In this document: piece after piece, positions 36,362-39,501 of the stretch
Layout of the letters: each line of letters starts with the position of its first letter
Position numbering within the stretch: position 1 is the stretch's first letter
NCBI GenBank assembly: GCA_022736555.1
Contig: DZCW01000007.1
Span: 1-39,501 of the forward strand
DNA from: Candidatus Saccharimonas sp.
Lineage (GTDB): Bacteria > Patescibacteriota > Saccharimonadia > Saccharimonadales > Saccharimonadaceae
Length of the DNA stretch: 39,501 nucleotides
Reading direction: 5' to 3'
Translations under genes and position numbers: made by a program
Notes under the pieces: generated by a model
Database searches by the model: none
What the model saw: only the letters and a program-made list of their open reading frames with translations
Told to the model about the DNA's origin: nothing

Positions 36362-37510
36362 CTATTTATACCTCTGTATGGTCTCGGAAACAACAGTGAC
36401 CACACTTCTATCAAACATAGTCGGCAATATCTTTTTGGGCGATAAATCAGTTACGGAATCGGCCACCGCTTGAGCAATAGCACTAAACATTTCTATCTTA
36501 AACTGAGGGATATTAGCATCTAACATACCTTTAAAAGCACCAGGGAAAACAATCGAGTTATTTAATTGATTTGGAAAATCGCTTCGACCAGTCCCAACAA
36601 TAAATGCCCCAGCCTCATACGCCTCGTCCGGCATTATTTCAGGAGTTGGGTTGGAAAGTGCAAATATAATCGGCTTGGCTGACATCGAACGAACCATATC
36701 TTTAGTTAACAACCCTGGTTTAGACAGACCAATAAACACATCAGCGCCTTTAACAGCATCGGCAAGCGCACCTTCGAATGATTTGGCAGTACTACCATCT
36801 AGTAGTTCCTGTTTTTCTTTGGTTAAGCTATCTCGACCGCTATGAATAATACCTTGGCTGTCACAATATAGAATATTATTTATCCCATAAGCTAACAATA
36901 AACGTGCCGTGGCCACACCAGCCACACCAACACCACTAATTACAACTTTAACAGCTTCCTTGGTTTGATTAGTAAGTTTAATAGAATTAATTAGCCCAGC
37001 CAAAGCCACCGTCGCAGCCCCCCACTGGTCATCGTGCATAACCGGGATCGATAATTCTTTGCGTAAACGTTCTTCGATTTCAAAACATCGTGGTGCCGAG
37101 ATATCTTCTAGGTTAATACCACCAAAAACCGGTGCAATTTGTTTAACAGCCTTGATAATTTCTTCGGTATCCTGAGTGTCTAGGCATATTGGAAAGGCAT
37201 CAACGCCAGCAAACTCCTTGAATATAGCCGCCTTACCCTCCATTACGGGAATAGCCGCTAAAGCCCCTAAATTACCAAGCCCTAATATAGCCGAACCGTC
37301 CGAAACAACTGCTATAGTATTATGCTTTAGGGTATATTCACGAGCTAGTAGTGGGTCTCTGGCGATTTCTCGTGATACTTCTGCTACGCCCGGAGTATAT
37401 GCCAACGATAACATTTCAGCCGAATCAAGCTTTAATTTACTAACGGTCTCGATCTTGCCATGGTTATTCTGATGTAATTCTAATGACTCTTTATATACGT
37501 CGTTTTGCAT
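36362..37510 (-). CDS. NAD(P)-dependent malic enzyme
   Basis: 382 residues, the short single-unit bacterial malic enzyme without a phosphotransacetylase domain. Motifs in order: SLAYTPGVAEVSREIA, VVSDGSAILGLGNLG, NLEDISAPRCFEIEERL, MHDDQWGAATVALAGLIN, GVGVAGVATARLLLAYG and FALSNPTPEIMPDEA. It decarboxylates malate to pyruvate, reducing NAD(P). AAGGAG lies a few bases before the ATG. With glutamate dehydrogenase nearby it may give a route between amino acids and pyruvate in an organism lacking a full TCA cycle (inferred). Confidence 0.95.
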   Translation of the reverse strand: MQNDVYKESLELHQNNHGKIETVSKLKLDSAEMLSLAYTPGVAEVSREIARDPLLAREYTLKHNTIAVVSDGSAILGLGNLGALAAIPVMEGKAAIFKEFAGVDAFPICLDTQDTEEIIKAVKQIAPVFGGINLEDISAPRCFEIEERLRKELSIPVMHDDQWGAATVALAGLINSIKLTNQTKEAVKVVISGVGVAGVATARLLLAYGINNILYCDSQGIIHSGRDSLTKEKQELLDGSTAKSFEGALADAVKGADVFIGLSKPGLLTKDMVRSMSAKPIIFALSNPTPEIMPDEAYEAGAFIVGTGRSDFPNQLNNSIVFPGAFKGMLDANIPQFKIEMFSAIAQAVADSVTDLSPKKILPTMFDRSVVTVVSETIQRYK

Positions 37511-37571
37511 ATTTTACTCCTTGATAAATTTAAATATCGGCACTTAGCGCTCTATATATACTAGCCTACTT

Positions 37572-37600
37572 TTGCAGAACAGAACATCAAATCGTATAAT
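37572..37600 (+). promoter_or_regulatory. Promoter of the two-TM zinc-ribbon gene
   Basis: TTGCAG (37572-37577), 17-base spacer, TATAAT (37595-37600). Start near 37607; GAGG (37617-37620) 7 bases before the GTG start. Confidence 0.7.
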
Positions 37601-37627
37601 AGTCACAGTAACGACTGAGGATAATTC

Positions 37628-37984
37628 GTGCTTAAAAGATACTTACTGTATTTAATGCGCTGGCAGCTTTCAACTCCTATATTGGCAGTCTGTTTAATGT
37701 ATCTACATTTCGGGGTCACCTGGAATACCGTGGTCGCTAATTTAGTAGGTGGGCTAATATTCTTCTGGGTAGACAAGTTCATTTTTACATCCAAAATCAT
37801 AGCACCTCAATGGGAAGTGGCTGAAAATATAGTTTGTCATGATTGTGAAAAGCCTGTGTTTAGAGGTTATAGATTAGTAAGAGCAAAGAACTACGACAGA
37901 ACATCAGCAGTCCCTGAATTTAGATGTGAAAAATGCAGTCAGATAAAGCTCGATAAACAAAAGAAAAAAGGGATAATATCGTAA
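37628..37984 (+). CDS. Two-TM membrane protein with C-terminal zinc ribbon (GtrA-like N terminus)
   Basis: 118 residues from GTG at 37628. Two hydrophobic helices (about 14-30 and 34-54) end with GLIFFWVDKFIFT, reminiscent of half a GtrA-like domain. The soluble part has two Cys pairs, CHDC (about 75-78) and CEKC (about 101-104), spaced as a zinc ribbon, and a lysine-rich end. Function is unknown; a small membrane protein with a cytoplasmic zinc ribbon. It has its own promoter, a Shine-Dalgarno and a strong terminator, so it is a complete single-gene unit. Confidence 0.75.
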   Translation: MLKRYLLYLMRWQLSTPILAVCLMYLHFGVTWNTVVANLVGGLIFFWVDKFIFTSKIIAPQWEVAENIVCHDCEKPVFRGYRLVRAKNYDRTSAVPEFRCEKCSQIKLDKQKKKGIIS

Positions 37985-37999
37985 GCCTAATATGATAAA

Positions 38000-38032
38000 A
38001 ATAAGTTAGCCATTTGGCTAACTTATTTTTTA
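38000..38032 (+). terminator. Strong Rho-independent terminator
   Basis: Perfect 13-bp stem AATAAGTTAGCCA (38000-38012) with TGGCTAACTTATT (38015-38027), two-base loop, followed by TTTTAT. It ends the two-TM zinc-ribbon gene and marks the last element similar to the sequence on its left. Confidence 0.95.
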
Positions 38033-38252
38033 TGGCGGTGTTTTTTGATTGATGTTCGAACTTTTTTTGACGAAAATCCTGAAAACTAATTTGGACTCGG
38101 CGGGGCAAACTATTTTTCTGGGGGAATGGAATTGCCCCGCCTCGGCTTTCTTCCCGCCCGCAGGAGGGGTCTGGGGAGGAATGCGGGCGGGTTTTTGAAC
38201 CTTTCCTTTTTCGCTTCCGAATTTCGTGCCAGTTGAAAACTGGCGCGCCACC
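38033..38252. repeat. Non-coding segment with three inverted repeats, foreign-looking
   Basis: No convincing gene is seen here. Two perfect 10-bp inverted repeats follow each other: GGCGGGGCAA (38099-38108) with TTGCCCCGCC (38132-38141), and CCCGCCCGCA (38153-38162) with TGCGGGCGGG (38182-38191, then TTTTT). A third is GCCAGTT (38228-38234) with AACTGGC (38238-38244), overlapping the palindrome TGGCGCGCCA (38241-38250). The G+C-rich stretches are unlike anything to the left. Minus-strand reading frames through it are proline- and lysine-rich and look like translated repeat, not protein. It resembles a dispersed intergenic repeat; I could not test that. Confidence 0.6.
38153..38196 (+). terminator. 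Terminator-like hairpin in the foreign segment
   Basis: A 10-bp G+C-only-type stem (CCCGCCCGCA/TGCGGGCGGG) with a 19-base loop, followed by TTTTT, in plus orientation. It could insulate the downstream promoter from read-through. Confidence 0.5.
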
Positions 38253-38287
38253 TAAATGTATTTTTATCTTATCAGAAATAGAACATA

Positions 38288-38316
38288 TTGACAATGAAAT
38301 ATTATGGGTATATATT
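38288..38316 (+). promoter_or_regulatory. Consensus sigma-70 promoter of the DUF5320-DUF134-TDT cluster
   Basis: TTGACA (38288-38293), exact consensus, 17-base spacer, TATATT (38311-38316). Start near 38323. This is the best -35 box in the window. Confidence 0.8.
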
Positions 38317-38320
38317 CATA

Positions 38321-38351
38321 ATAGATAGTAGGTAAAGGTCGAGCTATCTAT
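38321..38351 (+). promoter_or_regulatory. Inverted repeat at the predicted transcription start (possible operator)
   Basis: ATAGATAG (38321-38328) and CTATCTAT (38344-38351) form a perfect 8-bp inverted repeat with a 15-base centre, spanning the predicted start site. It could be an operator for the DUF134 helix-turn-helix protein encoded downstream, or a 5' RNA hairpin. Both readings are inference. Confidence 0.5.
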
Positions 38352-38379
38352 TAAAATTAAGAAAGGAGGTGAGAATATT

Positions 38380-38622
38380 ATGCCAAAATTAGATGGGACA
38401 GGCCCAATGGGTCAAGGTGCGGGAACTGGCCGAGGAATGGGTCCTTGCGGTGCTGGTTCAGGAATGGGACGAGGTTGCTGTGGTGGATATGGTTTCGGTC
38501 GAAGGAGATTTATTTCTCCCAAAAACGAGCTATCCGCTTTAGAGAACGAGGAAAAAATGCTTGAGGAAGAATTAGCGGCAATCAAAGAAGAAAAATCAGC
38601 CCTGCAAGCCCTGCAAAAGTAA
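38380..38622 (+). CDS. DUF5320-type small Gly/Cys-rich protein
   Basis: 80 residues. The N-terminal half is the DUF5320 signature: MPKLDGTGPMGQGAGTGRG, then a run of Gly, Met and Arg with three cysteines (GPCG and GCCGG). The second half (about 50-80) is a charged coiled coil rich in Glu, Lys and Leu. Family proteins are commonly found near DUF134 and Fe-Mo-cofactor-like (NifX/NafY) or Mrp genes, and are suspected in metal handling, but the role is not proved. The start has a near-perfect AGGAGGTGA 10 bases ahead, stronger than most sites to the left. Confidence 0.88.
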   Translation: MPKLDGTGPMGQGAGTGRGMGPCGAGSGMGRGCCGGYGFGRRRFISPKNELSALENEEKMLEEELAAIKEEKSALQALQK

Positions 38623-38623
38623 A

Positions 38624-38672
38624 AGAAGGCACGGGAGCCGGCCTCTTTGAAAAAGAGGCCAGTTGGCCTTCT
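38624..38672 (+). repeat. Nested inverted repeats between DUF5320 and DUF134
   Basis: Inner stem GGCCTCTTT (38640-38648) with AAAGAGGCC (38652-38660), loop GAA; outer stem AGAAGGC (38624-38630) with GCCTTCT (38666-38672). No T-run follows, so an mRNA-stabilising or attenuating structure is more likely than a plain terminator. Confidence 0.6.
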
Positions 38673-38715
38673 CTTAATTAAGAATTTATCATAAAATATA
38701 GAAAGGATCAAATAT

Positions 38716-38997
38716 ATGCCAAGACCAAGACTTTGCCGAAAAATAGAATTTAATCCGAATATAACTTATTTCAAACCTCAAGGCGTGCCGATGAGGGAGC
38801 TTGAAATTGTAGAGCTTACCGCCGAAGAAATAGAGGCGTATCGTTTGCGACACATTAACGATATGGAACAACAAGAAGCGGCGGACAAAATGCACACTTC
38901 CCAAAGCACTTATCAAAGGATTTTATATTCTGCATACAAAAATATCGCCGATGCCTTGATAAATGGGAAAACAATTAAAATAATTAAAAATAAATGA
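38716..38997 (+). CDS. DUF134 helix-turn-helix protein
   Basis: 93 residues. DUF134 pattern: MPRPRLCRKIEFNP at the start, then IVELTAEEIEAYRLRHI and a helix-turn-helix with QEAADKMHTSQSTYQRIL, resembling sigma region 4/ECF-type HTH. Usual family members are about 90-130 residues and are thought to be DNA-binding regulators. AAAGGA precedes the ATG. It lies behind DUF5320 and directly before the transporter gene, 1 base apart, so it may regulate this cluster through the inverted repeat at 38321-38351 (inferred). Confidence 0.9.
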   Translation: MPRPRLCRKIEFNPNITYFKPQGVPMRELEIVELTAEEIEAYRLRHINDMEQQEAADKMHTSQSTYQRILYSAYKNIADALINGKTIKIIKNK

Positions 38998-38998
38998 T

Positions 38999-39501
38999 AT
39001 GAATAGAATTAAAAATTTTCCAATCTCTTTCTTTTCGGTGGTGATGGGTCTGGCAGGATTAACTATTGCCCTGCAAAAGGCAGTGGGTATATTGCGAATT
39101 AGTCAAGTCATCTCGGATTTCTTTTTATATTTCTCGATTGCCGTCTTTGCAATTATTTTAATATTATATCTTTTTAAAATATTGTTTTATTTTGATGAAG
39201 TAAAAAAAGAAATAAACCATCCTGTAAAAATCAATTTTTTGCCAACTTTTTCTATTAGTTTACTATTAATTAACGTCGCTTTATTGCCAATCAATATAGT
39301 TTTATCATCATATTTTTGGTGGGCTGGGATAATCATACATTTTATTTTTAGTCTGGGAATTATAAGCACATGGATGCATTATGATAAATTTCACATTAAT
39401 CATATGAATCCATCGTGGTTTATTCCTGCTGTTGGAAACATCCTTGTGCCTGTTGCTGGCGTGTCGCATTTTAACCCGGAATTATCTTGGTTTTTCTTTA
39501 G
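38999..39501 (+). CDS. TDT/SLAC1-TehA family transporter, 3' end outside window
   Basis: Open frame from ATG 38999 through the right edge; 167 residues are visible. It begins MNRIKNFPISFFSVVMGLAG, shows about five hydrophobic helices, and carries the family motif MNPSWFIPAVGNILVPVAG. This is the tellurite-resistance/dicarboxylate transporter (TDT) family, also called SLAC1/TehA, of anion channels and C4-dicarboxylate or sulfite exporters. The substrate cannot be told. It starts one base after the DUF134 stop with no clear Shine-Dalgarno, suggesting coupled translation. Confidence 0.9.
   Translation, partial: MNRIKNFPISFFSVVMGLAGLTIALQKAVGILRISQVISDFFLYFSIAVFAIILILYLFKILFYFDEVKKEINHPVKINFLPTFSISLLLINVALLPINIVLSSYFWWAGIIIHFIFSLGIISTWMHYDKFHINHMNPSWFIPAVGNILVPVAGVSHFNPELSWFFF

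Follow-up and report, generated by a model that had tools for sequence, protein, structure and literature searches.

A likely serine-recombinase element end at the tRNA-Ser(CGA) site of a Candidatus Saccharimonas genome, and its relatives in other CPR lineages

Bacteria of the Candidate Phyla Radiation (CPR) are mostly uncultured and have tiny genomes, and the vehicles for gene movement among these organisms are poorly described. The closest described systems to the locus presented here are the ssrA islands of Dehalococcoides and the tRNA islands of tyrosine integrases. Like the CPR elements described below, the Dehalococcoides islands insert in a structural RNA gene, at its 3' part, and use a serine-family integrase, DsiB, whose gene overlaps attL and takes its end from the target gene (PMC3146451). 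They are tandem cargo islands that lack conjugation genes; none were recognised in the small CPR elements read. The tRNA islands catalogued by Islander resemble the CPR elements in being site-specific at the tRNA 3' end, in leaving the tRNA intact and in bringing cargo aboard (PMC4383910). According to the Islander paper of 2014, serine integrases are not known to target tRNA genes (PMC4383910), and a 2017 review of mobilizable elements has serine-recombinase elements inserting within genes (PMC5704250). Our literature search, which covered open-access papers, returned none on these CPR elements.

The boundary at position 38033

The window, that is, the whole stretch of DNA analysed, is the entire contig C7 (39,501 bp) of a 692-kb genome in nine contigs (96.6% complete), and position 39501 is thus the contig end. 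A first-pass annotation, made from the sequence alone, had reported a sharp change of sequence character at 38033 and left open whether it marked an acquired module or a contig join. The change is real. The GC skew switches sign at the break, from about -0.15 to +0.17; in tetranucleotide use, 38261-39500 lies at a distance of 0.471 from the rest, larger than in any of 119 equal-size windows (maximum 0.398); and the long matches in other genomes begin at query base 3, corresponding to 38033. An order-3 Markov score was unremarkable for the right-hand part (z 0.6) and did not separate the two parts. The boundary can be placed to within a few bases, and the abrupt change is a genuine insertion boundary of a mobile element. 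The features on either side are listed below (LSR, large serine recombinase).

37628-37984: gene of 118 aa, ending left of the terminator
37997-38031, no strand: native host flank with a bidirectional terminator, a perfect inverted repeat that also serves the 118-aa gene
38033-38086, + strand: outer element end, predicted attR-side half site; common start of the copies from many genomes
Within 38033-38086 (outermost ~50 bp), + strand: C-terminal tail of an LSR, WRCFLIDVRTFFDENPEN*
38099-38141, no strand: G+C-rich hairpin GGCGGGGCAA ... TTGCCCCGCC, stem 38099-38108/38132-38141
38153-38191, no strand: second G+C-rich hairpin CCCGCCCGCA ... TGCGGGCGGG, stem 38153-38162/38182-38191
38218-38253, + strand: inner A-type terminus GAATTTCGTGCCAGTTGAAAACTGGCGCGCCACC; in relatives' elements the motif is at one end and a B-type terminus at the other
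38228-38234/38238-38244: stem of the hairpin GCCAGTT-GAA-AACTGGC in the A-type terminus, with compensatory variation between genomes
38288-38316, + strand: sigma70-like consensus promoter TTGACA-17-TATATT, conserved ahead of DUF5320 at dozens of CPR loci
38302-38321, no strand: conserved near-palindrome TTATGGGTATATATTCATAA over the -10; candidate operator, probably of DUF134
38364-38371: ribosome-binding site AGGAGGTG for the DUF5320 gene
38380-38622, + strand: cargo gene 1, DUF5320 protein, 80 aa (PF17253, E 1.3e-8)
38716-38997, + strand: cargo gene 2, DUF134 (UPF0251) helix-turn-helix protein, 93 aa (PF02001, E 8e-21)
38999-39501, + strand: cargo gene 3, first 167 aa of a TDT/SLAC1-family transporter whose gene runs off the contig (PF03595, E 1e-31; TIGR00816, E 4e-31)

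The individual features that the first-pass annotation had named were all recovered. Left of the break, the gene ends at 37984 and is followed by a perfect stem-loop (37997-38012/38015-38030). To the right, three stems account for the reported G+C-rich inverted repeats, in a region whose DNA fold has a z of -4.2 (none of 200 shuffles was equally stable), the exact-consensus TTGACA is at 38288-38293, the strong Shine-Dalgarno sequence precedes the first ATG, and profile matches identify the DUF5320-DUF134-TDT set. No credible Rfam family was found within 37500-39501. The tRNA, the integrase and the mechanism discussed below were not part of that annotation.

Element ends and cargo in other CPR genomes

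The proline/lysine-rich frames across 38033-38252 had been suspected to belong to a repeat dispersed in CPR genomes, and such a repeat was indeed found: several CPR genomes have near-identical copies, and many have copies that are still recognisable. A DNA search recovered 38033-38255 nearly full-length in two other CPR genomes at 85-92% identity, namely Patescibacteria UR.bin13 (92% over 221 bp) and Komeilibacteria S5_K13 (85%). Of the 380 Patescibacteria genomes sampled, 37 have a detectable copy of the end (36 of 313 genera, own genome counted), and the DNA of 38031-38275 is single-copy in its own genome. No other genome of the window's family in this phylum sample matched the end. The sole other sign of the element within the genus is a relic in congener G010 (L021 2770), where a degenerate element end directly follows the CCA of tRNA-Ser(GGA), an older insertion. 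Phage and plasmid collections gave no DNA match to the element end, and no relatives turned up in viral contigs searched with the TDT fragment.

Copies of the end occur as inverted pairs, 1.6-3.7 kb apart, and wherever an element can be classified, one of its inner termini is of A-type (GAATTTCGTGCCAGTT..AACTGGCGCGCC) and the other of B-type (GAATTTCGTATTT..AAATGCGCC), the hairpins of both types varying in a compensatory way between genomes. The window copy shows the A-end. In the relatives a gene for a 65-71 aa XRE-type HTH protein adjoins the B-end and is followed by the cargo, which comprises Eco57I-like and type I restriction genes, CfrBI-like restriction and others, as well as an antiporter with a hemerythrin-like protein (assigned by eye). 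At four B-ends (L239, L126, L128 and L131) a conserved hairpin, TTGTGTTTGACCCGCCCACCC..GCGCACACAA, and then CTCCCT precede the XRE gene. No direct repeat was seen by eye in the few complete elements, and no relaxase or conjugation genes were recognised in the small elements read. We also considered a simple invertible segment and rejected it; the B-end faced the LSR in all classifiable elements, which argues against free inversion.

The cargo of the window has its closest relatives outside the host's own lineage. The DUF134 protein shows 85-93% identity with its WWE3, Zambryski-, Komeili-, Gribaldo- and Kuenenbacteria counterparts but only 62-69% with those of the same genus, and the tree places it with the other CPR lineages (100/98), with the native copies in a separate group (99/96); the transfer between CPR lineages that had been proposed fits these data. 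A native DUF5320-DUF134 pair is present on contig C1 of the same genome, its DUF134 being 64% identical to the window copy. This native pair (L016, C1:199252-199524) is close to a ZIP-like transporter and a rhodanese-like gene, and has its own copy of the operator-like sequence. An A-type terminus lies just upstream of DUF5320 in the WWE3 and UML_A.mb.15 loci too, so such elements have probably carried this cargo more than once. Since the cargo varies from copy to copy, the element would move small adaptive gene sets between CPR lineages.

A promoter with the near-palindrome TTATGGGTATATAYTCATAA over the -10 is common to DUF5320-DUF134 pairs at dozens of CPR loci, native copies included (about 60 loci in many CPR lineages for the near-palindrome), and the simplest reading of this shared promoter is that DUF134 represses its own expression. 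Further TTATGGGTATATAYTCATAA sites occur in loci L019 and L064, and the motif may serve as a DUF134 operator and regulon marker. The genes downstream of the pair in other genomes encode YibE/F, thioredoxin-like, peroxiredoxin, ZIP transporter and Mrp/NUBPL ATPase proteins. This neighbourhood points to a putative role in metal or redox homeostasis; in the window, the TDT-family transporter occupies the downstream slot.

Serine recombinase and tRNA target site

The LSR of the relatives has Resolvase, Recombinase and Zn ribbon domains, lies 134-331 bp outside the B-end and is transcribed away from it. The outermost bases of the element, read from the outside inwards, encode the end of an LSR, as does the tail given for the window above, and the B-side outer flank encodes the preceding LSR residues (..FRIADRTLVLDFKNAFKIAEKYHAE..DFTKSEN followed by WRCFLNEVRTFFDENP). 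This flank is an inverted copy of the 3' end of the neighbouring LSR gene, with 100% identity over 40-47 codons in two genomes, and the LSR tail joined to the element end reads W-R-C-F-L-x-x-V-R-T-F-F-D-E-N-P. For a coding test we used 44 distinct tails, chosen as open in the LSR-tail frame; the other two forward frames contained stops in 24 and 35 of them, the diversity at the three codon positions was 0.22/0.12/0.33, and pN/pS was 0.47. Complete LSR genes in relatives continue through the same W codon into tRNA antisense (..FAECKT-WRRGRDSNPGG..), this codon, TGG, being the complement of the tRNA 3' CCA. The core common to tRNA and element ends is TGG, extended with tRNA-Ser to TGGCGG. The LSR also has relatives in phages, the best-covering of which are ~25-27% identical.

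LSRs were detected in 104 of 362 genomes at a threshold of E <= 1e-60. At 24 of 30 further LSR loci read (a few of which had been seen earlier in the analysis), a tRNA or tmRNA 3' end coincides with the 3' end of the LSR gene, the targets being Ala, Val, Gln, Gly, Ser, Asn, Trp, Leu, Pro, Ile and Arg tRNAs and tmRNA; four of the six loci without such an overlap are apparently cut by contig ends. It is unlikely that another enzyme, such as a tyrosine recombinase or a DDE or HUH transposase, moves the cassette between the A- and B-ends while the LSR next to it belongs to a separate element at the same tRNA site. The cassettes do have long inverted, transposon-like ends and the LSR unit has inverted ends of its own, but cassette end and LSR unit meet in a single reading frame at a single junction, and among the cassette genes read none stood out as a transposase.

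In one locus (L209 350-436) only 85 bp, and in another (L220 141-163) only 22 bp, separate two inverted P-type ends, which are the LSR-unit termini. These minimal remnants adjoin element ends close to tRNA-Ser(CGA) and look as though they had lost the LSR gene by deletion. The genome of the window encodes another serine recombinase on contig C9 (L258 7066-8137), ~35-40% identical to these LSRs, and no tRNA was detected at its 3' end.

From the loci compared, tRNA-Ser(CGA) is a recurrent target among the relatives of the element: it is the LSR-side neighbour in L239, L222, L208, L133, L218 and L220, and in L209 it stands beside the element. In the single-contig complete genome G411, an intact tRNA-Ser(CGA) is accompanied by a displaced copy of the tRNA 3' end at the element edge. 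In the genome of the window, contig C9 opens at base 1 with an intact tRNA-Ser(CGA), CCA end first (TGGCGGAGAGGGAGGGATTCGAACCC). An A/T-rich bidirectional terminator directly follows the CCA of this tRNA in 14 of 18 same-genus genomes, against 3 in 1000 for random positions. Viewed from the tRNA side, the stretch before 38033 forms a terminator of this native type, with an 18-bp stem. The start of C9 and the native-type terminator together place the element at the 3' end of tRNA-Ser(CGA). The terminator at 37997-38031 most likely once stood 3' of the tRNA CCA end, and the original site would most likely have been tRNA-Ser(CGA)-CCA, terminator and 118-aa gene, with the element inserted exactly after the CCA. 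We infer that C7 and C9 are linked; a contig beginning precisely at the CCA would also be expected if the assembly graph branched there between empty and occupied sites. A preference of the element for terminators as such was considered and set aside, as the adjacency is accounted for by the tRNA position, terminators following tRNA genes.

In congener G012, an ortholog of the 118-aa gene lies 6.8 kb from tRNA-Ser(CGA), on its 3' side, and the gene order around the tRNA differs locally between the two genomes. A join of C7 to C8 through a G012 neighbour gene was also considered and rejected; the ortholog is internal to C8 and has no element end beside it, so gene order is uninformative for that join. 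A small multidrug-export-like gene on C8 (L006 5716-6162), beside a CPA2-type antiporter, has an in-frame TAG and is a probable pseudogene; its counterpart in G012 is intact and adjoins the 118-aa gene.

Of the two possibilities raised at the outset, the acquired module has stood and the contig join has not. An assembly chimera, in which the last 1.47 kb would come from a different CPR organism and be joined in error, might be suspected from the position of the foreign part at a contig end, its best homologs in other CPR lineages and its atypical tetranucleotide profile. However, the join is the natural end of a mobile element and falls at the exact base where the tRNA-Ser(CGA) CCA end belongs, the left flank is a native-type terminator, C9 of the same genome starts at that CCA base, and the relatives of the element use the same tRNA. 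Contigs C1 and C6 moreover overlap by exactly 55 bp, suggesting a k = 55 assembly, in which a false join would require common 55-mers. The precise element end, the terminator and the start of C9 thus disfavour a chimera; the break is very probably not one, and an erroneous join is highly improbable. A passive REP- or MITE-like repeat, placed beside host genes by chance with no serine-integrase mechanism, would suit the hairpin-rich ends and the many copies without a visible LSR but is scarcely tenable, given that the ends encode an LSR tail with a coding-like substitution pattern, that the LSR flanks the B-end at a similar distance and in constant orientation, and that LSR 3' ends coincide with tRNA ends.

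It is therefore very likely that 38033-39501 is the distal (attR-side) end of an LSR-borne integrative element at the 3' CCA end of tRNA-Ser(CGA). In the relatives the integrated order is host flank, A-end, cargo, small XRE-type HTH gene and B-end, followed by the inverted copy of the LSR 3' end, the LSR gene and the tRNA 3' end. The LSR is predicted to catalyse recombination at the short TGG core common to the tRNA end and the element ends, presumably via a circular form of the element. The tRNA stays intact, with the element sitting between it and its former terminator, and the LSR gene overlaps the attachment site, its last codons coming from tRNA antisense when integrated. The sequence to the right of 39501 is accordingly predicted to hold the end of the TDT gene, the XRE gene, the B-end, the LSR and TGGCGGAGAGGG, so that B-end, LSR and tRNA of the window copy would all lie there. 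Several observations weigh against this reading: the LSR and B-end of the window copy were not found in the assembly, and no other contig end of the genome carries the TDT remainder or an element end; the cargo genes point away from the A-end, opposite to their direction in most relatives; the local gene order around the tRNA is unlike that of G012; and the element is rare in the family.

Comparison with described mobile elements

We lean, with modest confidence, towards a broader model in which the LSRs of a CPR-wide clade have specialised for tRNA and tmRNA genes, at their 3' CCA ends, and carry small cassettes with long hairpin-rich inverted ends from lineage to lineage, the LSR tail being exchanged on integration. 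If true, the exchange of an element-encoded for a tRNA-antisense-encoded tail could serve as a built-in state switch, and the overlap of integrase gene and att site makes such regulation testable. A site-specific element that is spread across the phylum and has a universal landing place would go some way towards explaining the movement of restriction systems, transporters and regulators among remote CPR lineages. Short CPR 'hypothetical proteins', which would be translated element ends, and assembly breaks at tRNA-Ser may have their origin in it as well.

The elements share features with several known systems. Their resemblance to integrons, and it is a resemblance only, lies in a recombinase gene divergent from captured cargo and in hairpin-rich recombination ends; integrons, however, use the tyrosine integrase IntI with attI and attC, whereas the CPR elements have a serine recombinase and paired inverted ends and lack attI and attC. 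Integron-like cassette capture was dropped as the main reading, as the LSRs end in tRNA genes. Mobile insertion cassettes and MITEs with cargo are similar in their small size and in the terminal inverted repeats around non-transposase genes, but the CPR element ends code for the tail of an integrase and abut the CCA of tRNA genes, and no IS relationship was found for the elements read. The displaced tRNA fragment in G411 is a further likeness to the tRNA islands of Islander; those islands use tyrosine integrases (PMC4383910), whereas the CPR relatives carry a serine recombinase at this position. The Dehalococcoides islands are confined to one genus and have a tmRNA target, a 20-bp direct repeat and a two-recombinase SCC-like module (PMC3146451), whereas the CPR elements have one LSR, a core of 3-6 bp and long inverted ends, and are found mainly at tRNA 3' CCA ends in many CPR lineages.
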